Shown here: positions 12,614 to 58,210 of the stretch, piece by piece
Position numbering within the stretch: position 1 is the stretch's first letter
How the letters are laid out: every line of letters begins with the position of its first letter
Origin: Isoetes taiwanensis
Taxonomy: Eukaryota; Streptophyta; Lycopodiopsida; Isoetales; Isoetaceae
Assembly (NCBI GenBank): GCA_021234155.1
Contig: JAJEKV010000021.1
Coordinates: 19,405,881-19,469,880, forward strand
Length of the DNA stretch: 64,000 bases
Direction of reading: 5' to 3'
Program-made: the position numbers and the translations under genes
The notes under the pieces: generated by a model
The model's database searches: none
What the model was told of the DNA's origin: nothing
What the model saw: the letters and a program-made list of their open reading frames with translations, nothing else

Positions 12614-12672
12614 ATGCTTCTTTCCTCATATTTGTTTTCTAGCACAGCATCAAAACACTAAATTACGTCGGC

Positions 12673-13314
12673 ATGCTATTTTTGGATGCGCAGGATTTTG
12701 ATTGGAATGAAGTTCATATACTTTTAGGGAGTTTGGACACAAGTAGTATCGTCCTTCGAGAGGGTTGGCTACCTCAAAGTCGATGGAGGCTCGACCATGG
12801 TCAATTCCAATCTGATCAGCAGCCGATCCACTTGATGACAGAGGAGTCTGAAGAGGAGGTGAAAGAGGATCAAGAGCACTATCTTGGACCTAGAAAAGAG
12901 TGTCCCAAGTATTATGGACTTGCTCCATATGATCCTAAGATGGATTTGAAGGATAGCCAATATTTGATCGTCAGGCATGAAGATACTTATCCTATTTGGT
13001 TAGGGTATACCATCTCGAGTGTTTGTAGAGAAGCTAATAACTCTAACAGAAACAAGATGCGCGTGGAGTGGGGGCGTCCAGTAAGTGGAAAAGGAGTCAT
13101 TACTGAAAAAGAGCGCTACAAAGATTGTTTTAATAAGCAATGGAAGTATGATGCAAGTGATCCGGCCCAATGGGTGGAAACAAAATCCGTGCTGATGTCA
13201 TGGAACCCCAGAAAGGGAAAGGTGGAACCGAGAAAGGGGTGCATGAAGATTCCAATCTGTGTGAAGGATAAAGTTCTGAAGTCACTAGAGAAGATAGACA
13301 AACAAGCAAAATAA
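12673..13314 (+). CDS. C-terminal part of a DUF7869-type protein (copy 1)
   Basis: This frame of 213 codons has an acidic linker near residues 55-70 (EESEEEVKEDQEH). A small domain follows, with VRHEDTYPIWLGYTIS, MRVEWGRPVSG, and SDPAQW...SWNPRKGK. The same spacing (WLG, then V-W--PV, then a Cys-Trp block, then SDP) appears in the C-terminal part of the minus-strand protein at 18166-18729. The core with the GHTHDDID motif is missing here, so this is a truncated copy. The first Met is arbitrary. The family link is from my own alignment and moderately sure. Confidence 0.5.
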   Translation: MLFLDAQDFDWNEVHILLGSLDTSSIVLREGWLPQSRWRLDHGQFQSDQQPIHLMTEESEEEVKEDQEHYLGPRKECPKYYGLAPYDPKMDLKDSQYLIVRHEDTYPIWLGYTISSVCREANNSNRNKMRVEWGRPVSGKGVITEKERYKDCFNKQWKYDASDPAQWVETKSVLMSWNPRKGKVEPRKGCMKIPICVKDKVLKSLEKIDKQAK

Positions 13315-18165: not shown

Positions 18166-19390
18166 CTATGTCCCCCACATGTCAACAATGTATTTTGGAA
18201 TCCCGAGCAGGTCTTGGGTCTTTTTGCCATTTGCATCCCATGCATAATGTATGGCATCTAACTTCTCATACCTTGATGGATCTGATGGATTGGGTCGCCA
18301 ACATTTAGTTAAGCAACCTATATAGTCACGACCAACAGGCATCCACCATGATACATAAATGTGACCATAATTAGTAGACTCTGGATCCAGGATGGCATCT
18401 TCTTCTACAAAGCCCAACCACGTTGGACTTTCATCATCTCCAGGTCGGACTAAAACGAACATACCTTTCATAACATGTGCATGAGGGTCGAACTCATCAT
18501 CCATAGGTAACAGTGGACACCCATTTGCTGGCCCACAATACGTACACAAAGGTCTTACAAGCACAGCGGCTTCATCGATCTCTGGAGTAAAGGCAGCTTG
18601 TAGAGGTTCTTGCCTTGTACGCAGCCAAAAGTTATCATTTTGAGGTCGTCCTGGAGATACATCTTCCAAACACAAAAGAATCTCGTTCAAAGAATCCATA
18701 GTTGCTTTTGTAAATCGTTGCAAACACACTATCTTCTTGATTTTTGCAAAAGAAATTCCATAATGCTATGTACTTGTTGATGCTGTCTGCCAGGCCAGGG
18801 AGATCTTTCAATGTCTTCCTTGGAGGGATATTTTTAGGCACCCCTGTTGGTAACGTTGGCTCACCATTTTCATCCTCCTTCCACATTCTTATTCCTTTTT
18901 CTGGAATCCACTCTTTATGGGTTGGCCGCATCTTATATTGCATAATGGGCCATTTCCCATCCATTTTAAATCCGAATAGAAATGGGTCGGTATGGCCTGT
19001 TAGACGTTGGCCTTTATCAGGGATATATCCCTTGACAAAGCCTTTCCAATCCGAAACTTCATCCACAAAATATGGAACAGGAGACTTTGCATTGCACTTG
19101 CTAAACAAGTAAAGCAACTCAGGCAAAGTTAGAGCATCCGATAAACTCATTAACGTCGAAAAGTTCCCAAACAATGCATCAATGTCGTCATGAGTGTGCC
19201 CAATCATCATGAAGCAAACCTGAATCTCATCGAATACCTTAAACCATGTCAAATAAGAGAGGTAGGAGAACACATATCTATTTTTATTTTGACTCGATGC
19301 ATTATCCAACTGTAAGTAGAGATTTCGAGGAAGAGGATTGAAGCCTTCTAAGTAGGCACTAGAAGATGAAGGCATCATCTCTTGTGTCTG
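18166..19390 (-). pseudogene. DUF7869-type protein (copy 2), 5' truncated, one frameshift
   Basis: The first frame (19378-18635) opens with RNLYLQLDNASSQNKNRYVF and continues to the motif GHTHDDIDALF at about 19200-19170. It ends in a region with LLYLFSKCNAKSPVPYF and VDGK-like blocks. A frameshift near 18700 leads to the C-terminal frame (18729-18166) with TWLGFVEEDAILD, VSWWMPVGRD and NPSDPSRYEK. LDN...KNRY and GHTHxDID are the hallmark motifs of this uncharacterised family. Their conserved Asp residues suggest a DDE-like nuclease or transposase, which is inference. The N-terminal part with the first Asp (IDGMD) is missing at the junction with the gypsy element at about 19390. Confidence 0.65.
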
Positions 19391-28959: not shown

Positions 28960-29977
28960 ATGACTAGAGCTTCTAGATCCGCGCTCTTCCAAAGAACTGA
29001 AACCCTTTGTGCCCCTAGATCCAGAAATTGCCCGCTAAGAGGTCAAGAAGATGGCCCGGTCAAATTCCCGAATCGATGCATTGCGAATCAGCTCTCACCT
29101 GAAGGTGCAAAAGGATTGCAACCGAGGAAGCGAAGAAGGCAATGGTTCCAAAACCTAGTGAGTCGATGCCCCGATAATTCTTTGGCCTTGATTGTTCATG
29201 GAAGTGATGTCGATGCCATTGAAAGCAAGAAACTAAAGCCGCCCCGTTGATTGGTCTAACAATGCAATTGGCACAATGCTTTCCTTGATGAAAGAATATA
29301 AAGTGCATAATAATGGAAACATTAATCTATCCATGGTCGGTGAGAGAGATCATGATAAAACTTCGACATTCGGTTGAGGGCTTAGAAGATATAAGGCGGT
29401 TGAGAAACAAATGGGATAAATTGCAGATAAAATTTAGGGATGAAAAAAGAAGCTTCGAGAGAGGACTGGAGCGAACCTTCGAAATGGCCATGGTTTGAAG
29501 TCATGGAAGATTTAAAAACGAAGATGGACTAATGAGAGAGACATATCTGGTGGTGGAGATGATGGATCTTTTGGTCCCGAGGCATTTCAAGAAGCTGATA
29601 TGTTCACAAATGAATTTATGTCTCAAGCATTCTATGAGACAATTGGCACTGAAGCTTGAATTTGTAAATGTTGAGAATGTGAATGTTGAGAACAATGGAG
29701 GTGTTCCTGCCAGTCCATACAGTCCAATTGGGAATGGCAGTAAAGACAATACTAGTGCTCAGAAAGAGACTCCAAGTGGCTGCAATATTTCTGATACAAG
29801 CACAAGATCTGCTGCTTGCAATAAACCAGGAGTTTATGGGAAGCCAACAACCAAAAGAAGATCTCGAGTTCATATAGATGAAGATATTGCAGCAGGCATA
29901 TCTAAAATGGCAAACAGTTTTGGGAAAAATGAAGCAAGAAAATTGGAGTTCATGAGGGAGGATCAAGCCAAGCAGCA
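28960..29977 (+). pseudogene. PIF/Harbinger Myb/SANT-like protein (copy B), broken
   Basis: The 5' part (28960-29250) mirrors copy A up to the SKKLKPP region but has lost the SANT core to indels. The 3' part (29640-29977) is well kept: VNVENNGGVPASPYSP, SGCNISDTSTRSAACNKPGV, then DEDIAAGISKMANSFGKNEA and KLEFMREDQAK. This is the C-terminal half of the Myb-like accessory protein. Confidence 0.6.
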
Positions 29978-30020
29978 TTTGTGGAATTGTGGAATCCCCA
30001 AGCAGCATTTGTGGAATTGT
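29975..30020 (+). repeat. Tandem AAGCAGCATTTGTGGAATTG at the gene junction
   Basis: The 20-bp word occurs twice with a 10-nt gap, exactly where the Myb-like gene and the transposase are fused. It probably marks the repair of an internal deletion. Confidence 0.8.
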
Positions 30021-30029
30021 AACAGCCAC

Positions 30030-30930
30030 CTCCTGATCAGTCATTTGACCCTGACTAATCTTTTTACCTGTCATCTGAATAGTAGGCTCTTGCATTATCT
30101 GTTTGGCAGCCAACCTCTTGTACAACAAACTTTTCTTAAATTGATTTGCATCATGCACAGAACCAGTCCTATTCACACAAACATTAATAAAAATTCTTTG
30201 GTGAGTAACCACACCTTGCATAAGGCAGGAATGTCTTTTGTGCCTGGAATAATAGTCATCACCCTTGTCTTTGCTCCATGGTTTTCTGTACAAATATATA
30301 TGAGATCCATCAACAGCTCCAAATATATTTGGTATACCTGTTGCATCTTCAAAATCTTTGTTTATGTCCAACAATGTTTGACCTATTGGTAAAGCAATGA
30401 ACCTCTTGTAAAGCATAGTCTTGGATGCCAAAACAAGAGTTATTTTTTCGTGTATTTCACGCACGGTAGCTTTACCTACATAAAATCTTTGGCCTACATG
30501 CAAGGGTTTCTCACCATGTGCTAAAAAATAAAGCACCATGGCCACTGCTTTCCTGGGATCAACAGGCAGTCTGACCTTCATTCCAGGCCTGATTAAGTAA
30601 GGCACAATCGGGTCGAACTAAATTCTCAAATGCAGACCTCTTCATCCGATAGAACTGGTGCCACATATCGTCCTCAAAAGAGGGGAGGCAATTCCAAGCG
30701 TGATTATCAATGTTGTCCCACTGTGTTGTCTGCCTTGGACATACCCAAAATCTTCACGGGGAGGCCTCCTTAATCTCGAACAAGCTGCTAGGAAGAGTGT
30801 GGATCTTTGCACACATGTGATGAATATTATCTTCTACCTCGCATTACGCTCTAAAATATCCATTGACCCTTCTCGTTCATTCTCACGTATCAAATGTGGC
30901 CCAGTAGCTTTGGAAAGCCAAGCCGAAGTT
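30030..30930 (-). pseudogene. PIF/Harbinger DDE transposase, C-terminally truncated
   Basis: From the high coordinate, a piece with MWHQFYRMKRSAFENLVRP (about 30670-30610) is followed, after a frameshift, by the long frame 30605-30030. This has LPVDPRKAVAMVLYFLAHGE, VGKATVREIHEKI and IFGAVDGSHIYLYRKPW, which holds the first catalytic Asp. Next are DYYSRHKRHSCLMQGVV and the GSVHDANQFKKSLLY block. The frame then leaves the family at about 30060, so the later catalytic region with the last Glu is missing. It cuts and joins transposon ends in intact relatives; here it is inactive. Confidence 0.85.
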
Positions 30931-31480: not shown

Positions 31481-32760
<1,280 letters not shown>

Positions 32761-33109: not shown

Positions 33110-33678
33110 TGTTAGTCCCAGTGCCTCACGGTACAGGACTATTCATGCATCTGACATGCACTGAGGTCAAGCTCAAGTATCCTCGATCCCACGGGTCAGC
33201 CATCAAAGGCCTCGCCAGAAGACCAAGCGGCAGACCCACGCAGTCAAAGCCCGTGGCGATCAACAAGAGGCGCCTCGGACAAGTGGCGACCCGTTACCGC
33301 GTCGGCGTCGGCATGATTCTAGGCACTTCAAGAGGCACCGCCAACATTCCAGAATCGGGCCTCCTTCCGTGAGTGGCACCGAGATCGGTCAGTGTCTATA
33401 TTGGGCCCAAGGCCATTGTACTATATATATGACTAGAGCTCGCACATGAGTTCTAGATGAGTTTAGTCTTGTCTCCTTTGGTTTTTCTCTCTATTGCGAG
33501 CTCATATATGTTCATCATTGATATCAAGGAAGCTTATCATTTTCCTCTCATTTGTTGTTTTCTTCTTCTTCTTCTCTTCTTGCAAATCCGTGACATAGTC
33601 CTCCGGACTCTCCCTGTTAGATCCGCGGGTCCTCACAGGGTCGCTGTCTTCCGGAGTTCCCGAACCCGGACCCAAACA
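33110..33678 (+). repeat. 5' LTR
   Basis: It starts TGTTAGTCCC and ends CCCAAACA. It matches 56891-57490 almost throughout, with many small indels. A TATA-like ACTATATATATGAC lies at about 33420. Confidence 0.85.
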
Positions 33679-33682
33679 ACGC

Positions 33683-33698
33683 TGTCGCCGCTGCCGGG
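33683..33698 (+). promoter_or_regulatory. Primer-binding site, tRNA-Asp type
   Basis: TGTCGCCGCTGCCGGG differs at two positions from the plant tRNA-Asp-complementary site TGGCGCCGTTGCCGGG that Athila/Tat elements use. It lies 4 bp after the LTR. Confidence 0.7.
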
Positions 33699-34966
33699 TC
33701 TGATTCCATCCTACTTTCTTTCATGCGCCATGTGCGTCCGTAATTTCGCGGAAGAACTCCTTTCTCAGCGGCCTCTGGCTTGGAGGCGCGTAGCATCAAG
33801 CGTCGAAGCTGACGGCGACATGTATGGATCGCTTATGACATAGAGGAGGCCATCGCCGGTCTAGGGCTTTCGGTCGGCGCCACCCACCCCTGGTGTCTGT
33901 CTCGTCCGGTTCCCAAAGCGTGCAAACATTGCTCACAACCTCGGTCCCCTCATCACTATCCGGGGAGCCTTATCAGGCTCAACCTTCTCAACCGTACTTT
34001 CATACCCACGAACGTGCCTACATCCATCATTCTTGGGCCATCGCCCTCTTCCTTCACAACCATCATCTCCACGGGGTGGGCACGGATATCCACCGCGTCT
34101 CCTTTCGCCTACCGAATAATATCCTTTCCCCACGTTTCCCCTTTGCCCTTCTGTTTACAACCTTACGGATCTCAAAACCAATGCTCGGCTACTTGGTTTC
34201 TCAGCCGCGATCACCCCTTCGCCGGGGTCCTTCGGGCACCATGCCACATCCAACTCAACCTCAATATCCTCACTATCTTGTTCTGTCGTCCAGCCCAAAG
34301 ACTTTCACATCTACCTTTCGGACTCTAAACCGACTTATCCCACCTTTGGCAACACGAAAGGCAAACCGTTAGACCAAAGTGCTCAGCCCACATGGAAGAA
34401 TTTGAGGCTCTAGCTGTCCTAAATGGTCATGCGCAACCTCAACTGAAATTCCACATCTTTTTCCACCACCCTGCGTGGCTCTCCTCATCAATGGCTCATG
34501 TCCAACAAAAAGCCATTGGAAACAAGATCGGTCCGAAATGAGAACTGCTTTGTCTCATTATGGAACCCGCGGATGATGATCAACTTTATCTCAAGCAACT
34601 CAATGAACTTCAACAAGAGCCCACGGAAATGCAGGGATTTTATGGATCGACTTCACATTACGCTAAGTAAGCTCAAGGAGTACCCCACACGAGCCCGATT
34701 TTGGTGCGGGTTTCTCAAGGACTTCCTCCGGCTATTCGACTCATGATCGAATACCAAGGCCCCAAGACTTTGGGTAGGAGCTATCGACCTTGTCAATCAC
34801 TCGTCAATGTTTCCTCCCGAGGCGTGGCTCTTCAAGAGCTCCCGTTCATTCCACTGTCATGGTTCCACAAACATTTGTCAAAGCCTCAACACGCTTAATC
34901 CAAATAAGTCAAATAACTGGTGCCATATTTGCAAATACCAAGGCCATTTGACAAATGAGTGCAACT
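33699..34966 (+). pseudogene. gag: Gag of the 24-kb gypsy locus, 5' part
   Basis: The first 600 bp is degenerate. From 34391 the gag is readable in shifting frames: MEEFEALAVLNGHAQPQLKF, QLNELQQEPTEMQGFYG and VSQGLPPAIRLMIEYQG. At 34942-34962 a clean zinc knuckle reads CHICKYQGHLTNEC (CX2CX4HX4C). The DNA transposon is inserted right after it. Confidence 0.65.
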
Positions 34967-34996
34967 AACAAGGTTTAAAATGAAACGCACTTATTT
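34967..34996 (+). repeat. Left terminal inverted repeat of the 8.8-kb transposon
   Basis: It begins AACAAGGTTTAAAATGAAAC and runs to ACTTATTT, matching the complement of 43721-43749. A local hairpin (AACGCACTT/AAGTGCGTT) sits at 34984-35009. Confidence 0.85.
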
Positions 34997-34999
34997 AAG

Positions 35000-36180
35000 A
35001 AGTGCGTTTGAAAGATTCCTTTATAAAAATTGGAAACTTGAAAAAAATGGACAAAATAGGGAGCAAAATAGATTGTTGAGCAAATAGCATTCGAAATACC
35101 CAAAAAAAAGCAACATTTTTGAAGCCTTTTCATTTTTTTAAGAAGGGCAAAAAAAAAAAAAAGCTTGTTTTGAGGGAGAGACATTACATTTTAAAACTCA
35201 TTAAGTATTTGTTGTTGAAAATAGAAGGAAATATAGTTTTGTGTTTTTGCAAGCTTAATATAAGTACTAAGAAAATCAAACATAGAGAAGAGAAAGAGTC
35301 TGAAATCATGAATCAAAAAAAGAATTGTTCTAATTAAGCATTGTTGAAGAGACAAAGTTTTCAGTTGAAAAATCTTCATCAAAATATATTGAAATTAAGT
35401 AGCACATAGATTACAATGAAAGATAGTTTAAAATCTTTGTCTGTATAAATTTATACTCTGAGGTGGCTCTTCCAGTCCACAGGACTCTCTCTCCCCTTAG
35501 GATCGGTGTCTCTTGTGAGGTTATAATAGCGAAGCGCCCTCTTCCTCGATTCCAATGGTGCAGTGCAGGCTGTTTCAAGCCGGCTCGTGCACCACGGGCT
35601 CAGTCGGCCGAACTCCACCTCCTCATTTCTTCTTCCCGTAAGTGGAGGTGGATTTACGTATATGTGCCTTTTACATCGCCAAACACCATTTTTTGCTCCC
35701 AATTCCTCGTTTTCATCGGGGAAAGGATTCACAAGAGCTTATCCCGGTCCCGATGAAACTTATTTTGTCGGGTCTATGTCGACGGAGACAACATTGCGCC
35801 CTTTAGGGGGCAAGCGGGCTGTGGTGCCCGAGCGAGAAAATGCGTCTAAGATCCAGTCCCTGTAGAAAACCATTGTATCAAATTATTAATAAGTCGCTGT
35901 GGCTTCGATATAGGACACCACAAATACTTTGTCATTAATGGGTCTCTTAATTTTTGCAAAACCGCCGGCGAAACGCATTGCGGAGTGAGTCTTTTCATTC
36001 TGGCATTATTAAAGTGAACCATGGTTTTTTTTGGCGCTCGCGTAAAACCCTATGTGAAAGTGCTCAAACAACTTACTAGCAGCGGACCACCACCATGACC
36101 CTTTAACGCTTGTTTTAAGCCACCTTAAACAAATACAACAATGAAATATTAGTAAAATAAAACAAGGAAAATAAGTTAGC
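35000..36180. other. Left part of the transposon, no gene recognised
   Basis: It is AT-rich to 35455, with one palindrome copy at 35442. The GC-richer stretch 35460-35870 has frames on both strands but no recognised domain. Confidence 0.4.
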
Positions 36181-36189
36181 TCAAGAGTG

Positions 36190-39100
36190 TGGCGGTATAA
36201 ATTTATACGGGGTTGCCTTACGGTATAAATTTATACAAGGGCCGCAACATTATAAATTTATCACAGACATTGCCTTGCTATATAAATTTAAACCTTAGGG
36301 CTGGTTGTGGTATAAATTTATCTGGAGTTACTAAAAAGAAAAGCGTTAAATGTTAAGCTTACCAAATCACGATTTTCAAAGCGGCATTATTGCATGACCC
36401 CATAGGTTTAAGCACCGACATTGTTTGTAGGTCCGAATGGAAAATGATGACCCTCCGTTAGCGTGATAAGGTGACTTCCTTCAGGGCCTTCCAAAAAGAG
36501 TGGACTTGCACGGCGCGGAAAGCCTCCTCGTCAAAGCTATCGCTTAATTTTGAAACCATAGGGAATATCTCGAATGCATAATGTGAAGTTTCGCTTCTCA
36601 AAAGTGTCCCCGGCCTGCGTGTAAATCACCCTCAACAACTTCTGTACATGCGGTCCGACCAAACGTTGTAAATCTTTTTCATAAGAAGTGTCCAAAGCCG
36701 CTAGTGGCGACCTCCTTTCCCTCGTTGGATTGCCTTAAGTCTCTCTCTTCCTTGGCCCCCACGAACCAGGTTAAAAAAATGGAGCCCCTTTTTTCTTGTT
36801 CTGCAGAAGAATATTGAGAAAAAGGCACAAACACGTAACATATTTTTAGCAAAACTTACCCGCTACTAAAGTTACAACATGCTCTCTAATGATACCATAG
36901 GCAGGTACAACTTGGGTAGAGAAGCTTGCACTCCTCCCACCCCTCTAGGTTTAGCCGCTTCATTAACTCGCCCTCGGCGGTGACAATGTCTTTTCGACTG
37001 CAAAGAGAAACATGTTGTAAGACCGTCAGAAAATGTAGAAGAAAGACGGCATTGCAAATGTGGCTTTACGCCTTAGCTTCCTTGGCCATTTCGTCTAATG
37101 TAAATTCCTTGGCCACGACTTTTTCCAAAAGGCGAACAAAAATTTCTTTTGTTTTTTCCCCTCAGAATCGCCCCGTGGTACAATGCTCATATTTTTCTCG
37201 TTTTAATTCTCCACCCTTTTTGGTTTTTTTCCTTCGGAGCTGGCTTGCTTTAAGCTCACCATCTTGAACATACAAAAATTTTTCTTGAAGATCCTTACAC
37301 CGTAAATGGACAAACGCCATTAGTTTAGTGTTGCTTAGCGTGAAGAGAATATGTTGCACAGTCTACTTTCTAAATAACACGAGGGTGTGTAGTCACGGTA
37401 TAAATTTATACCGTCCCGACACCTGCGGATAAATTTATACGAGCGACTTTAAACTGTGATAAATTTATACCAGGGATTAGGATCGGTATAAATTTATAAC
37501 GCGTCCTACCACCAGATAAATTTATCGGTATCCTACCACCTGTGATAAATTTATACCGCGATTAGGGATTCGGTATAAATTTATACCGTACGGTTACGCG
37601 CTGCAGAGACTATGTGATAAATTTTATACCGGGATTAGCCCAGACTACTGATAAATTTATACCGCCACTAGTCGTGGTGATAAATTTATATCGCCACACG
37701 GTATAAATTTATACCGTGCGAAGGCACTTGTAACCACGCTAAACATACTACAAAACATAGAAAGAAGAGCAGCTTCTTACTTGACCATCTCTGAATGCCA
37801 GCTGAAAGTAGTTATCGTATTGCTTTTATCGCCATAATGGGCTTCTTTATCATAGTCATAAGCCGAGGCAAGATCACACGCGGGGCTTCTCGAAGCTCCC
37901 GCAGCTTGTTCTTTTGCTTTTAAAATCCTCTCCATACATTTGTTTAAATTCCACGTTACTCACGGTGCATGAAACGGATCTTGTCTATTAAACTCATTTT
38001 AATCAAGTCATTGTTTAGATTATGACTCCGCGCAATGACTTTTGCTTCTTCATCTGTTACACCAATTATATATGTGCTTCAACGCGCTCTTCCACACTTC
38101 GTTCACGGCTTTCCTCTTTTGCTAGTTCTTTCCTTGCCTTGTAACTATGTGTGCCTCCAAGAACGTAGTATGTGTAATCTTCAAGTCACCTTCTTGTAAT
38201 CTTTTAGTTGGTTGTGACCGACTCTCGCCCCACCATAACAACTAGTGGCGACACATGGGCATGAGGATTTCTTCTCATTCTTTGTTTCAAAGATAGCCAC
38301 ATGTGCCGCGATCTGACTTCGGACCAGAGCACTTTCGACCCCATCTTCATTTTAGGTGGCCTCTTAATGGTGCTCAATGTCAAAGAAATAGTTTGCTTTA
38401 GCGGTTTAGTGTCATTCACCCGCTTGAGAATAGCACTTGATTTATCCGGGGGCTTCACAACAATATGCGCTCCAGAGCCTTCAAGAGCTTCTCGTTGACT
38501 CCTCTATAGTCAAAGCCTTTGTGCCTCTAGATTTCTTTTTTTTGTAGGAGCTGTGTATCTACTACGAGGGAATGCTTTCTACCCTTTCCCTTTGTTACCA
38601 CCTTTTGGTTCCTCTTCCTCTTCTTCTTCTACTTCCTCGTCCTTCTCTTCAAACTCTTGGGTTAGAGGGGTACCACAGACCTTTGACCAACTTTGTTTCT
38701 TCAAGAAAGCACAACCTGACATCAAAATGTCCACTATATCCCGTAATGCGTGGTTAAGTTAGGAAGATGACGGTATAAATTTATACGTGAAGACACTAAA
38801 CAACACTTACATGGCCACTCTTGTAATTGTCGATACCACGTACTCATGCACATCTTTGGGTTTGCACATGCTTATTCAAGCATTTTACTTTCAAGAACGT
38901 AGAAGACTTCCCCTTGTCATGCATGCACTTCATTAAGATTTCATCATCGACCTCTGTAGTAATAAGGTTGACAATTTCGCCTAGGGTAATAATCGTCACT
39001 CTTGTACTTGCCCTTCCCCGATTGATGACACAAGTAAAGGTGCGCTCGGTGGGTTTGCTCTCTCTTGCACCCCTCGTGGACGCATTTCACGCCCGGTCTT

Positions 39101-40212
39101 TCGATTCAGATATCGCGTGGCTCTATTGGTGCAGCCTTTGATGGTCGCCCCTTGTTTACAAACCCGATCTTGGGGCTGGAAAAGCGTAAAGAAGGCCATT
39201 TTTATGCAAGAACGCAGAACCTTTTCGACCTTTTTGTAACATAAAAACAAGAAAAATAGAGGCGAAAAGAGCATAAAATCTACACTAAATTATCACTTTA
39301 TTTGTGTTATTTAAGCTTAAAAACGCAAGAATATTACTGAAATATTAAGGTTTTTGACACTTCTTTAAGCACTAGACAACCAAGATTCCAAAATGGTTCT
39401 CGATGGGTTTTAATTTATACCGCCGAGCTAACGTAGTTTATAAATTTATAATCGAACTGGAATGTCACTTCAGATAAATTTATACCCGCTAGTGCTCGGC
39501 GGTATAAATTTATACCGTTCCCGCGTCGGTATAAATTTATACCGCAGGTGCTCGAGCGGTATAAATTTATACCGTTCCAGAACACAGTCGGTATAAATTT
39601 ATACCGCAGGGTGAAGCGGTATAAATTTATATCGATCGGTTTGGAACGGTATAAATTTATACCGCTCGAGACCTGCAGGTATAAATTTATACCCATCCGA
39701 ACTATATCGGTATAAATTTATAATCGATCGGTAATTCTCGGCAGAGTAAATTTATAACGCCATTCAGCGCAGATAAATTTATACCGATCCAGAACCATAT
39801 CGGATAAATTTATACCGCGGGCGCTTTACACGAAGCGCATTAAAACAAAAGAGAAACTAGAACAAAGACGTAGTAGACTTGCATTGGCCATGACAAGATA
39901 GACCCCGCATAGGCGTTGCCCAGAGCAAATGGGGGGGTATATAAAGTTTGACCGCGCCTTCGACCCGTGGCGCGATATAGAAAATAGGGTACGGCGCTTA
40001 AGTACCGCTAAGGCCGCCATATAGCGCTTCTCCATAAAGTTTTGTCACAAGTGTGCAGCGTGAGTTTTCAGATAAATTTATACCTTTCGTTCTATATTTG
40101 CCCTCCTCTTCAGATAAATTTATACCATCTCGTATAAATTTACTCTATACTGCCGCCTTAAGTTTTCTTCCCAGATAAATTTATACCAACTCAGTATAAA
40201 TTTATACCCCGT
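36190..40212. repeat. Dispersed 16-bp palindrome GGTATAAATTTATACC, about 37 copies
   Basis: Clusters lie at 36193-36325 (5 copies), 37396-37720 (11), 38771 (1), 39408-39830 (14) and 40070-40210 (5), plus one at 35442. About a third are the full palindrome, often extended to CGGTATAAATTTATACCG. Others lack one or two outer bases (GATAAATTTATACC). Spacers of about 15-30 bp are all different, so the motif itself is conserved, not a tandem unit. The 37.4-37.7 kb cluster lies in an intron of the minus-strand gene, and the 39.4-40.2 kb clusters lie between the two divergent genes. Confidence 0.95.
36370..39280 (-). pseudogene. Multi-exon minus-strand gene with a ParB-like stretch
   Basis: From the high coordinate: LGEIVNLITTEVDDEILMKC (about 38975-38830); LNHALRDIVDILMSGCAFLK with an acidic Glu run (38757-38577); HIVVKPPDKSSAIL (about 38470-38360). 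Then YTYYVLGGTHSYKARKELAK (38184-38100) and TDEEAKVIARSHNLNNDLIK (38060-37985). The last two have the G-G-x-H-xx-x-A and later 'ls.eeA..lA..hN...' layout of ParB/sulfiredoxin-like N domains. An exon ends at a GTAAGA donor near 37770. The next (37359-37162) reads TKLMAFVHLRCKDLQEKFLY, and more pieces follow to about 36400 (SYEKDLQRLVGPHVQKLL). Several frameshifts are present. The ParB link is my inference. Confidence 0.4.
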
Positions 40213-40253
40213 ATGGCTCGAGAGAAAAAGAACCTGAGCCTCAACTCCACGTC

Positions 40254-43200
40254 TTGGGCTTCCTCCTACAATGGCTTTCACACCTCCTCCAATTAACACG
40301 TGAAGTAGCATCAATATTCTACATCCTAACATTCCAACACCCGGCTTCTGTTGAGTTTACTCCGGCAAGACCACCTCGGCTTCCACCACCGGTTCAATTT
40401 ACTCCACCACACCACGCTCTCACGAATGTCGATGCCCCCCACCAATGCGTTTCACCCCACCTCAGGCTAGAGAGGTGGACTACCTCCTCCAATTCATTTT
40501 AGTAATTCGCCCATAGTCCGTAGGCTCCTCCCTCCCAGGCAAATCACACCAACTCCATCCATTTCGCTAAATGGTACTACAACAAGTGGGGCAGTCGGCC
40601 GACACGCAACTCTGTGTTCTGACGACGCTTGGGAGCTGGTCAACTACGTCACCGACCTCGATTACTTTTCGGAGGGAAAGCACCTCCCCAGGCCTTGCCC
40701 ACATCAAACCTCTCAGCATCTACAAGTACACCTCATGTTGATCTCTCAGACGAAGAAACACCTCATGTTGATGTCTCAGACGAGGACCTACCAAAGCCAC
40801 AAGACTCCATGTTCGAATTCAAAGCCCCTGCAAGTAAAAATCTGCAAAAAGCGTAACTTACACAAGGCGGCATGTACAACCGTTAGAAGAAAAGAAACTC
40901 ATGGACGAGGCTCACTTTGCGGGCAACACATACAAAGCAACGTTGTTCTCAACGTTGTTTGCTTTAAGATTGGACTAAAGGAATTGAGGTTGCTTCGTGA
41001 TAGTTACGGTTCAATGACTCTGCTAGACCAAGGGGCTATTTAGCCTTCAATATTAGGCGGATGATGGTGAGAAGTTTACTTTGACGGCCAGCTGGTGGCC
41101 AACTGCCCGTCCGTCCAAACGGCCTTCAAATTGATTCATGCTTTAGGCAGCAGACGACTTGACCGCCTGAAGAAAAGGCTTGACAAGAATCCAGGCATCA
41201 ATGACTACTGCCATTCAGGAGGCATAACCAGAATTCATGCTCTTCAATGTGTTTCCTGGATGGAAGGTTTCTTTAAGGAGTCTTGTGAGAAACTCCCCTA
41301 ACAGCCCTATGTACCACTTGAGTGACAATTTCACGAAACAAGAAGTCTAATGATAATTATAAGGAGATGTGTGTTGAGGTCGGAGAACGCTTTGTTCCGC
41401 TACTCTTACTTTCATCGTGCTTTCGGAAAAAAGAGTTTTCTCGCGTGGCCATTCCTAGAAAGCATAGGATGTCATTTTGTGCTACATGCTCTGAATTAAA
41501 AGCTCGGAGACAAAATGCAAGGACACTTCACACTAAAAGTAAGCTTCGGGACGTGTTCTTGCCTAGTTCTACTTAAAGTAGGTTCTTTCCTAAACATGTT
41601 TTCCTTTCGGATGCATTGAAGGAGCCTGAACAAGCCTGAGAGAACAACAATCTTTGGAAAGGAGAAAATTGACAAAACATAGGAAGAAAACCTTTGGAAC
41701 AACCACTCAACTACATATCGGTTGTTATTGATGGAATGGACAGGAAGAAGACCACCTACCACATTTTGTCAATGTGCCTAAGGATCTTCTTTGAAGAAGA
41801 TTTCATACATCCGCATGTTGTTGGTGCTATGGTATTTAATGGAAAACTATCTTGCAAGGCATTTTTGAATTATCCAAACATTCATGCTGATCCAAATCTC
41901 ACTATCACAATATTGAATAAGCTTCTTTCCAATCTAGAACATATCTGCTTGATTCTCAGATCTTCAAATTAGATAACACGACAAGGAAAAAAATAAGAAT
42001 CCGGGCGTTGTTTGCTTATTGTGCTTTATGCTAGTAGAGAAACAAATCTTCAAGAAGGTGAAGATTGGTTTCACCGCTTGTTGGTCATACACGCGACCAA
42101 ATTGATCGATGTTCAAGAGGTTCTCTAAACGTCTTTCGAAAAAAAAAGCTCTAAGCCACGCCAGCCATGATTGAGGTCATCCAAGATTCCTACAATCCTC
42201 GCCCGGACATCGAGTTATTGGAAGAAACTTATGATTTCAAGGAATGGATTTTTCGGAGAGATCAACTAGGTCTTGTGCTATTGAGCCCTTGAGAAACATT
42301 ACATTCCAAAGATCGATCAAAATTTCACTTGTAGATGGCAAGGCCATCTTACAAGGAAAGAAATACCACATCCTTGCGATTGGCGACCCAGACAGCAGTA
42401 TTCAATTCATTCGCAACATCCCCAATACTAGTTCCATGCTCTGCAGAGCAAATGCCTCTAAAAAGCTTGAAAGAAATCACAAAGAGTAAAAAGGAGGGAA
42501 GAGCATTTGACTCAAATAAATCATTGGATTGTATTGAGACAAGTATTGATCTGCTCTAACCACTTTGGGGAGGCAGATGCTTTATGGTGGCCTCAATTTT
42601 TTTCGAAAGAGCGTGACATGTTGCAAGCTTCATTACAAGGTCGAAGACCAGTTACATTCAACTGGCCATCTAGGCAAACCCTCCCTGTGCAAGTTGAGAA
42701 TCAAGAGGAACATGTAGAGATATTGGCTAGCTCAGATGAAGATGACAGAGTCATGTACACTGGCCCTAGGCGCCTGACACAACAAGTTGCTTTCGAGTAT
42801 CCGGTTGGGTCTCGAGATTGAGAAAGGAATGCTCATAGCTGTCCCGGTGATAATGATGAACGGGAGGCCATTACGGCTAGCTAAAAATCTTGGAGGTAAC
42901 AAGAGGATGGAATTCCCACTCAATTAAAAAGTGCACCTGGATGAGAACGATCACGCCAATGCTTTGATGGGGAGTTATACTTTGGAGATGGTAAAACAGA
43001 GTGGAAAGAGAGCTAAGTCCAAAGCAAGCTTTCTTTGTCATAGATCTAACTGAAGTAAAGGTTCTTGCATATGACTTTGTTCGATTGCTTTGCTAATAAG
43101 TTACGTATGGTCACTCAAACTTTAATAAGGTCGAAGATGTGGATTAGACAAACAAGCCAAAAGGTGGCAAAAAAGATGATGATGAAGACTCACTTGTAGA

Positions 43201-43280
43201 CGGTGAGGAAGAAGATGGATTCAGAGTACATGAAGTCTTGAGAGTGAAGTCGAGGATGAAGGCTCGAAAGTGATCGGGGA
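40254..43280 (+). pseudogene. DUF7869-type protein (copy 3), most complete, frameshifted
   Basis: An acidic N-terminus (40629-40856: VDLSDEETPHVDVSDEDLPK) is followed by a helical block (41095-41250: CPSVQTAFKLIHALGSRRL). The core comes next: YISVVIDGMDRKKT (Asp at 41730), KLDNTTRKK (Asp at 41972) and, in another frame, VGHTRDQIDR (42080-42109). After it come FQRSIKISLVDGKAILQGKK (about 42310-42365) and a WWPQFFSKERDM block near 42575. The C-terminal domain starts near 42790 (KGMLIAVPVI), and an acidic tail (DDDEDSLVDGEEEDGF) ends near 43270. Three conserved Asp positions would suit a DDD/E transposase; that is inference. At least five frame changes occur. Confidence 0.65.
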
Positions 43281-43720
43281 ATAAATGAGTCGAGAGGATG
43301 AGATGCATCTGATCTTGCTGCAAAATGTAAGTTTGTCCGATGACTCGAACATGTAAAGAACAGAAAGTCGGGGTGATGATTGTCCATCAAAATATCCTAT
43401 ATTTTTGACAATTTTGTTCATAATTTTGTACAATTTTCACAACCTTGAATATATCACTTCTTTGTCACTCTACTACCCTTGCTATTTTTTTATTGCCCCT
43501 TTTTTGCTACACTTTATAAAAGTAACTATTTTTGTTCTAGTTTAGGAGGATGAAAATTGCTATTTAAAATTTTTTGCACGAAAGTTATGTTCAATCAACC
43601 CCTCAAAAATGGTACCTAAATTACTTAAATTGTCTTTGTCACAAAAAAAATCTTAAAAATGGACTTTTTAAGGAATTTTAGGAATCTTTCAAAGATTCCT
43701 TTTGAAGTGTTTGTTCCGGC
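43270..43720. other. Right subterminal region of the transposon
   Basis: It is AT-rich and non-coding. A perfect 9-bp-stem hairpin GGAATCTTTCAAAGATTCC lies at 43681-43699, close to the right terminal repeat. Its TTTGAAAGATTCCT half also occurs near the left end at 35007-35020. Confidence 0.6.
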
Positions 43721-43749
43721 AAATAAGTCGTTTCATTTTAAACTTTGTT
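43721..43749 (-). repeat. Right terminal inverted repeat of the 8.8-kb transposon
   Basis: Its complement reads AACAAAGTTTAAAATGAAAC and on to ACTTATTT, matching 34967-34996. AACT follows directly. Confidence 0.85.
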
Positions 43750-43753
43750 AACT

Positions 43754-56890: not shown

Positions 56891-57490
56891 TGTTAGTCCC
56901 ATGCCTCCCAGTACGGGGACTATTCATGCATAACCTGACTGCACTGTGTCAAGCTCAAGGATCCTCCCCCAGCCACCGGGTCAGCCATCAAAGGCTCGTG
57001 AGGAAGACCAAAGCGGCGGACCACTTGATCAAAGCCTTGTGCCCCGTCAACAAGAGGCCCGCTTCCGGACAAGTGATGACCGTCACCGCCTTTCCCGTCA
57101 GCACAAGATGATTCTAGGCACTCAAGAGGCACCGCCAACATTCCTGCAGAATCAGGCCTCCTTCCGTGAGCCGGCACGAGATCGGGTGAGTGTCTATATT
57201 GGGCCCAAGGCCATTGTACTATATATGACTAGAGCTTCGCATTACGAGTTCTAGATGAGTTTGAGTCTTGTCTCCTTTGGTTTTTCTCTCTATTGCGAGA
57301 GCTCATGTATGTTCATCATTGATATCAAGGAAGCTTATCATTTTCCTCTCATTTGTTACATTTTCTTCTTCTTCTTCTCTTTCTTGCAAATCCCGGCGTG
57401 ACATAGTCCCCCCAGGACTCTCTCGTTAGATCCACGGGTCCTCACAGAGGGTCGTCTTCAGGGGAGTTCCCCGAACCCGGACCCCAAACA
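56891..57490 (+). repeat. 3' LTR
   Basis: It matches 33110-33678 from TGTTAGTCCC to CCAAACA with scattered substitutions and small indels. The same TATA-like ACTATATATGAC is present near 57220. Confidence 0.85.
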
Positions 57491-58210
57491 CGCTCCTCCA
57501 GGAGGGTAAATGCCAATGCTCCCCTACCCTCCCAGAGCTCGGTTTCCGTATCCGATCGTTGAATCCAATGTTCAAGTAACCTGCTTCAAGCATGTTCAGA
57601 AAAATCCAAGATCGGTCCAGGAGAACTTATCAAACCGTGAAGTGTCCTGCGGTCGACCGTGTAGACACCCAAGTGTTTTGTCATTCGGGCAGTATAAAGG
57701 CTCCGGAATGGAGATTCGACTTCGCCATGCCATCCAGAATGACAAAATTACCCTAAAGACCGAGTTACACGGTCATTTTTGGCAACAAAAGGAAAACGAA
57801 CCCTCTACATGGCGTTATTCATGACCATCTCTTTAGACCAATTGACTACTGAACATGTTGGATATGAGCTATTTTGGCGCTTTTTTTGGAGAAGGGGTGG
57901 TCTCTTGCCCACTAAACTTGGTCCCCTGTGGTAATGTCAATGTTTTGAGTCCATTGGCGAGTCGGTTCATAGATCGGAGTGGGGAGAGTTGCCCGTCCGC
58001 GTGGCGGGGTTCTTGAGGAGAGGACCTTTGGGGCGGAACTACTTGGGGAAGGTTTTAAGGGTCCTTCTTAGCGCCAACACCCTCCCCTACGCCATGGCAT
58101 TGTGCAAGATCCTGGTCAATCGACTAGGATATGGTCTCCCAAACGTAAACCCCGTGTGTTGCTAGGTTATTGAAGGGTTTATGTTATGGGGTCGAAGTTT
58201 TAATCGGTTG
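57491..58210. other. Unique stretch after the LTR
   Basis: A 104-codon frame (57510-57824) is not recognised. At 58125-58200 there is a partial copy of the loop region of the foldback that follows (CCCGTGTGTTGCT and flanks). Confidence 0.4.

Follow-up and report, generated by a model that had tools for sequence, protein, structure and literature searches.

The systems closest to the locus treated here are mobile elements that encode a protein acting on DNA modification or on silencing, and they are compared below on the basis of excerpts of the papers cited. The locus is a DNA transposon of the quillwort Isoetes taiwanensis, at positions 34967-43749 of a 64,000-nucleotide stretch of contig JAJEKV010000021.1 (assembly GCA_021234155.1, positions 19,405,881 to 19,469,880), a stretch referred to as the window. 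The transposon carries a gene with the domain DUF7869, a divergent partner gene with a methyltransferase domain, and an array of short palindromes that, in the window copy, lies mainly in the partner introns and in the region between the two genes; the 10-bp core of the palindrome is conserved between copies. The element is read, with modest confidence, as a transposon of the cut-and-paste type, moved by a DUF7869 transposase, whose partner protein would mark the element's own array against silencing.

In Arabidopsis, VANC proteins bind the noncoding parts of the VANDAL elements that encode them, where short motifs form tandem repeats, and they strip off silent marks; VANC21, for its part, occupies motif-bearing tandem repeats in the noncoding DNA of the transposon it comes from (PMC10398659). 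The quillwort element resembles this system in having an extra gene beside a putative transposase gene, a noncoding motif array and, presumably, host methylation as its opponent. However, the target repeats of VANC diverge fast between families (PMC10398659), whereas the quillwort core is unchanged where the partner proteins are 70-88% identical. The VANC-like noncoding placement of the array was seen in the window copy, with bins drawn by eye, and in one intron of six divergent copies. VANDALs are also Mutator-type elements, and VANC is not known to be a methyltransferase.

Fungal DNA transposons with TET/JBP dioxygenases likewise encode an enzyme that changes DNA modification and is thought to evade silencing, but the enzyme is a dioxygenase acting on 5-methylcytosine, the transposases are different, and a palindrome array is not mentioned in the excerpt (PMC12730594). 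Self-encoded DNA methyltransferases are found in DIRS retrotransposons, where they are Dam-like N6-adenine methyltransferases, and in other retrotransposons with C5-methyltransferases. These are retroelements without terminal inverted repeats of the DNA-transposon type, however, and the excerpt does not mention a matched target array; DNA transposons encoding a DNA methyltransferase are described in marine viruses (PMC5890265). Sola2 elements share the 4-bp target duplications and, in some cases, the presence of extra genes; the AWWT target preference reported for Dictyostelium Sola2-type elements (PMC3627910) was not seen in the quillwort family.

The partner protein itself resembles the beta-class methyltransferases MboIIA, RsrI and CcrM in the region of motif I and, over a weakly matching stretch, ParB-like proteins. 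Unlike the bacterial and phage methyltransferases, it sits in an intron-containing transposon gene and has a putative motif IV that reads DIPYG. Among the titles and abstract openings of the open-licence papers searched, no report was recognised of a transposon with DUF7869 or of one, of the DNA type, combining an N6/N4 methyltransferase with a palindrome array, nor was any paper on DUF7869 found. The family may already carry a name in Repbase.

Element, copies and candidate transposase

The window copy lies between terminal inverted repeats inside a perfect target-site duplication, both of which the initial annotation had pointed out:

34963-34966, left target-site duplication AACT, seen in the sequence
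34967-34996, plus strand, left terminal inverted repeat; the end-to-end similarity is gapped and extends about 80 bp further in
43721-43749, minus strand, right terminal inverted repeat, from the alignment of the ends and exact end matches in other copies
43750-43753, right target-site duplication AACT, seen in the sequence

Positions 34966-34996 and 43750-43721, the latter taken as reverse complement, are 93.5% identical. When the two 60-base ends are aligned locally, the score is 50; among 19,868 pairs of 60-mers drawn at random from the window, the highest score was 36.

By eye, the flanks contain CX2CX4HX4C zinc knuckles, CHICKYQGHLTNEC at the left and CKRCNMCNHATEEC at the right, and the insertion therefore falls between two knuckles. 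The annotation had placed it in a gag gene just after a knuckle; by eye the knuckle is there, and none of the six flanking frames scanned gave a gag domain in Pfam. Direct repeats at 33110-33683 and 56891-57494 (84% alike, both beginning TGTTAGTCCCA) suggest a long terminal repeat (LTR) retroelement around the transposon; they are probably the LTRs of the retroelement whose gag took the insertion.

The genome (1,658,258,908 bases in 1,110 contigs) was searched with the 201 bases 34963-35163, giving 1,194 first-look candidates, of which 40 were scored, all of them 98-100% identical to the query. In all 30 loci that were cut out, the match begins at base 1 of the element (window 34967), and the 21 flanks printed are all different. 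Twenty of the 40 loci, selected by the similarity of the left 201 bp, were fetched as 10-kb stretches. Both ends, identified as exact 21-base matches, lie within 10 kb in 18 of them, at lengths of 8,536-9,626 bp; the right end was not found within the 10-kb stretch of copies L034 and L044. Perfect 4-bp duplications flank 17 of the 18 two-ended copies, the remaining one, L035, having one mismatch. The sequences found in other copies are ACGT, TACT, AAGA, TCAT (twice), AATT, AAAA, CTAT, CTGT, ATTT, TCTT, TTTT, TACC, GAAG, TTAA, CAGA and ATTA. The family is mobile DNA, present in many copies and inserting with 4-bp duplications of varied sequence. Copy L050, at 9,626 bp, exceeds the second longest two-ended copy by about 0.6 kb.

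Two divergent genes are present where the annotation had drawn them, and in the window copy frameshifts and stops disrupt both. The published I. taiwanensis assembly is described, in the excerpt used, as nanopore-based with polishing (PMC8566536), and some frameshifts in the copies may be assembly errors. Sequencing noise as the source of all the frameshifts is countered by the in-frame stops that are also present in the window copy.

The gene on the right has the following features:

40471-42820, plus strand, DUF7869 gene, frameshifted, start uncertain (Pfam match of the read-through; conserved motifs)
41721-41753, plus strand, acidic motif VVIDGMD (alignment with relatives)
41960-41986, plus strand, acidic motif KLDN (alignment with relatives)
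42077-42118, plus strand, acidic motif GHTRDQID (alignment with relatives)

The read-through of the window copy matches DUF7869 (PF25273) at 105.5 bits (E = 3.5e-30; cut-off 26 bits), which agrees with the claim of a DUF7869 gene inside a bounded mobile element; a single open piece of it reaches 21.6 bits, below the cut-off. A homologue search with this single piece gave 2 candidates without significance, and one with the 578-amino-acid read-through gave 2,990 candidates, none reaching an E value of 0.001; the viral contigs and plasmids searched gave no matches. A better preserved DUF7869 remnant at 18.2-19.4 kb of the window, used as the query, retrieved 77 relatives, all PF25273, three of them from Physcomitrium patens. 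In the 77-sequence alignment, D485, N486, N491, N493, T522, D527 and F530 are invariant, and the columns conserved at 90% or more include H349, D353, G520, H521 and D525. An RNase-H-type DDE/D nuclease requires acidic residues in three spaced motifs, and conserved acidic positions as in such a triad are present (D353, D485, D525 and D527), as candidates for the catalytic residues. The motif VIDGMD is kept in frame by 11 of the 19 copies, and the other 8 have a frameshift at that spot.

Because of this acidic pattern, its place in a bounded mobile element and the lack of any other recombinase in the element pieces scanned, the DUF7869 protein is very probably the transposase of the family, as had been proposed, and it is predicted to have an RNase-H-like fold; no PDB sequence match was found for DUF7869.

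Two other DUF7869-related pieces lie in the window. The second remnant, at 18166-19350 on the minus strand, reads LYLQLDNASSQNKN...IGHTHDDID; its 5' part is truncated at the start of a retroelement-like polyprotein, and its best relatives are unlike those of the element's gene. The third piece, at 12643-13314 on the plus strand, resembles the C-terminal part of P0001/P0002. The two remnants were considered as extra copies of the element and rejected, as their best matches, P0001/P0002, differ from those of the element's gene. The end motif of the element does not occur elsewhere in the window above chance; other ends around the two remnants were not sought.

The partner gene and the palindrome array

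The partner gene and the region that separates it from the DUF7869 gene are made up as follows:

35720-36060, minus strand, C-terminal exon with amino-methyltransferase motif I at 35814-35852 (Pfam and PDB matches of copies L037 and L050; borders approximate)
36061-36365, minus strand, intron with 5 palindromes (donor GGTAAGC; borders by eye, acceptor uncertain)
36366-36700, minus strand, exon with the putative methyltransferase motif IV DIPYG at 36552-36578 (in-frame motif across copies)
37301-37780, minus strand, intron holding 10 palindromes (borders GT...AG, clear by eye in copies L052 and L056)
37786-38752, minus strand, exon with ParB-like YYVLGGTHSYKARKEL at 38123-38170 and AKVIARSHNLNND at 38007-38045 (PHROG matches; 333-amino-acid frame of L037)
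38986-39093, minus strand, N-terminal Cys/His-rich stretch, CVHEGC... (by eye)
39301-40215, region between the divergent genes, 18 palindromes about 30 bp apart (site counts)

The partner gene is frameshifted in the window copy, and its protein is best followed in the open frames of L037 (333 amino acids for the middle exon, 174 for the last) and L050 (177 for the last exon). Motif I reads ILDAFSGSGTT in both. The L050 and L037 frames match PF01555 (DNA methylase) at 59.2 and 55.7 bits, over a cut-off of 26.7, and the window read-throughs match it at 16.7 and 14.9 bits, under the cut-off. Among proteins in the PDB, the L050 frame matches MboIIA (E = 1.2e-8), CcrM (7.3e-8), RsrI (1.1e-7) and, more weakly, the PvuII N4-cytosine methyltransferase (0.0017), and in PHROG it matches five phage methyltransferase families at E values of 1.3e-8 or less. 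The putative motif IV, DIPYG, can be read in frame in 8 of the 19 copies; in the remaining 11 there is a frameshift at that place. From these matches, an N6/N4 DNA amino-methyltransferase domain at the end of the partner protein is a well supported prediction.

Of the 19 copies, 12 have YYVLGGTHSYKARKEL in the middle exon, and AKVIAVSHNLDND is found there in 11. The stretch looks ParB-like by eye, and the top PHROG matches of P0078 over it are two ParB-like families, with weak E values of 0.028 and 0.029. A ParB-like part of the protein is a lead. The Cys/His-rich N-terminal stretch has no Pfam match.

The palindrome has the consensus CGGTATAAATTTATACCG, derived from 677 exact cores over 19 copies, with uninformative flanks. 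The window copy holds 32 exact 10-bp cores, ATAAATTTAT, and 3 with one mismatch, close to the 37 or so that had been estimated, and one exact core lies elsewhere in the window; 200 dinucleotide shuffles of the element gave a mean of 0.065 cores and a maximum of 1. These 35 sites are distributed over the two partner introns (5 and 10), a short gap between exons (1), the intergenic region (18) and a position near the left end (1), and there are none in the five bins, 5,621 bp in total, that were treated as coding sequence or in the last 899 bp, the coding and noncoding bins having been set by eye once the sites were known. The 19 copies have 26-40 cores each, all of them in the bins from 250 bp to 6,000 bp as counted from the left end, the part to the right of these being free of cores; in the 18 copies other than the window copy, cores were binned by coordinate only and not by exon. 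Of the neighbour distances of 60 bp or less, 385 of 549 are 27-32 bp, and the spacer sequence is uninformative.

A genome search with the L037 partner protein (3,574 first-look candidates, 121 scored) gave at least 124 matches, the long ones being 70-100% identical, and 26 of the 30 best-scoring matches are stop-free. About 600 bp of the intron side were fetched from six copies with partner identities to L037 of 70, 71, 71, 73, 81 and 88%. Copies with divergent partner proteins might have been expected to have a different palindrome, but the same one was found in all six, in the same intron (4, 5, 4, 6, 9 and 1 exact cores), between spacers with no visible relation to each other. This constancy, which is not a test of co-variation, points to a putative fixed recognition sequence.

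The core is also conserved in the alignment of 18 copies. With the palindrome sites taken from the window copy, 52 of 6,090 letters at A/T sites of the core are off the majority (0.9%), against 1,557 of 40,460 at A/T positions in the unclassed rest of the element (3.8%) and 240 of 1,862 in the spacers (12.9%), where the rates are raised by misaligned repeat units; for the palindrome arms, the count is 162 of 1,366 (11.9%). A/T composition was tested as the reason for this conservation and is insufficient. In ungapped units with a spacer identity of at least 70%, 6 of 5,060 core letters differ, compared to 803 of 9,360 in spacers and 493 of 3,872 in arms, in a test that demands an exact core in one partner and by our own estimate favours the core about twofold.

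The ends of the element are similarly well kept. In the left 200 bases, 1 of 3,562 letters deviates, in copies selected by that same stretch, and in the right 250 bases, which had no part in the selection, 1.1% of A/T sites deviate. The combination of decaying frames with preserved ends and cores suggests that many copies moved in trans, although some of the frameshifts may be assembly errors. In the interior classes, 8-14% of CpG and CHG positions deviate, versus 2.6-4.9% of other positions, an excess that would be the footprint expected from cytosine methylation in those contexts. Outside CpG and CHG, the ParB-like exon deviates by 4.4, 6.3 and 9.4% at codon positions 1, 2 and 3, which amounts to a third-position excess. 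The corresponding values for three DUF7869 stretches are 8.1, 4.8 and 6.3%; 4.6, 3.3 and 4.8%; and 6.2, 3.9 and 5.3%, and for the methyltransferase exon 12.4, 9.0 and 12.3%.

A possible self-marking mechanism and its alternatives

In the proposed mechanism, the DUF7869 protein would cut at the inverted ends of about 30 bp and reinsert the element with 4-bp staggers and little site specificity. The partner would be a single protein that opens with the Cys/His-rich stretch, contacts DNA through its ParB-like part and ends in a methyltransferase for N6 of adenine or N4 of cytosine. It would go to CGGTATAAATTTATACCG, chiefly to the A/T core, at the sites within the partner introns and the promoter shared with DUF7869, and methylate adenine or N4-cytosine at the palindromes or close by. 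The methylated array would then mark the DNA as belonging to the element and keep both promoters open against host CG/CHG methylation, in a VANC-like manner but with a bacterial-type writer. The methyltransferase identity of the partner, its possible ParB-like part and the placement of the palindromes in the introns and shared promoter all go beyond the initial annotation.

The steps of this model are not equally secure. That the partner protein recognises the palindrome is fairly likely, given the constancy and placement of the core, and the chances that it also methylates it appear evenly balanced. An anti-silencing purpose, argued by analogy, is tentative, and self-regulation of the divergent promoter, or a part in transposition itself, would be alternative roles. 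It is also only a tentative suggestion that a plant transposon writes its own N6-methyladenine (6mA) or N4-methylcytosine (4mC) mark, through a bacterial-type ParB-methyltransferase fusion acting on an array with 30-bp spacing in its introns and promoter, so as to shield the element from host silencing or to set it apart for it, and that DUF7869 makes up a superfamily of its own. The occurrence of 6mA and 4mC in land plants is debated; if the array is methylated, the element would be a land-plant transposon that has a base-methylation code of its own. For DUF7869, so far a domain without an assigned function and with at least 77 relatives in the databases, the reading would provide a concrete role as a transposase, in a family with many copies in a plant lineage.

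A number of observations weigh against this reading. The usual methyltransferase motif IV is (D/N/S)PP(Y/F/W), such as DPPY, from which DIPYG departs. The ParB-like match is weak, and Pfam gave no ParB match to the partner, its hits being DUF6551 (15.3 bits) and some weak, unrelated families. In the palindrome, the C/G arms are kept no better than the spacers, so that the tight conservation is limited to the 10-bp A/T core, and the palindrome contains TATAAA on both strands, which makes a promoter element conceivable; such a role leaves the intron copies unexplained. A clear third-position excess is absent from the DUF7869 stretches and the methyltransferase exon. A complete DUF7869 frame was not found among the 19 copies, the longest (506 amino acids, in L050) stopping short of VIDGMD. 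Stops in the partner frame in four of the six divergent copies mean that part of their divergence is decay. To these are added the points of procedure given above with the counts, namely the by-eye bins, the binning by coordinate, the sites taken from a single copy and the inflated spacer rates.

Of the competing explanations, one takes the palindromes as internal binding sites of the transposase or its complex, needed in cis like subterminal repeats, with the methyltransferase as side cargo. The best conserved parts are indeed the cores and the ends, with frames that decay, as would be the case for copies moved in trans. Nevertheless, this explanation is unlikely: the subterminal sites bound by known transposases lie at both ends, whereas the cores occupy only the left-hand bins in the 19 copies and, in the window copy, mostly the partner introns and the promoter region.

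That the element belongs to the Sola superfamily and represents one of its members in full, as the initial annotation had considered from the 4-bp duplication, is similarly improbable. The duplication length and the extra genes of some Sola2 elements would fit, but only 2 of 18 duplications agree with AWWT, and membership in Sola is not supported.

A third explanation sees the array as an unselected tandem repeat, spread and homogenised by slippage or gene conversion. The array does vary in size, with 26-40 cores per copy and 1-9 in one intron, and its arms are as variable as the spacers. However, the core and the regular spacing persist between unrelated spacers, which slippage would have duplicated too, and the palindrome recurs where partner proteins are only 70-88% identical, which makes this quite improbable. 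Equally hard to sustain is the idea that DUF7869 is cargo and an unrelated transposase acts in trans, since, even though copies have moved with the gene broken in the window and with no complete frame found in the 19 (some frameshifts perhaps being assembly errors), the ends, the 4-bp duplications and an alignable DUF7869 gene occur together in the family, the acidic motifs are conserved in relatives and no other recombinase is seen in the scanned pieces.

Neighbouring sequence

To the left of the retroelement-like repeats, positions 31606-32754 form a long self-similar array (about 72-80% alike) that adjoins a short-period repeat near 31484-31605. Further left, on the minus strand at 29616-30617, lies an open frame of 333 amino acids containing FGAVDGSHIYL, by eye a putative remnant of a Harbinger-type nuclease.

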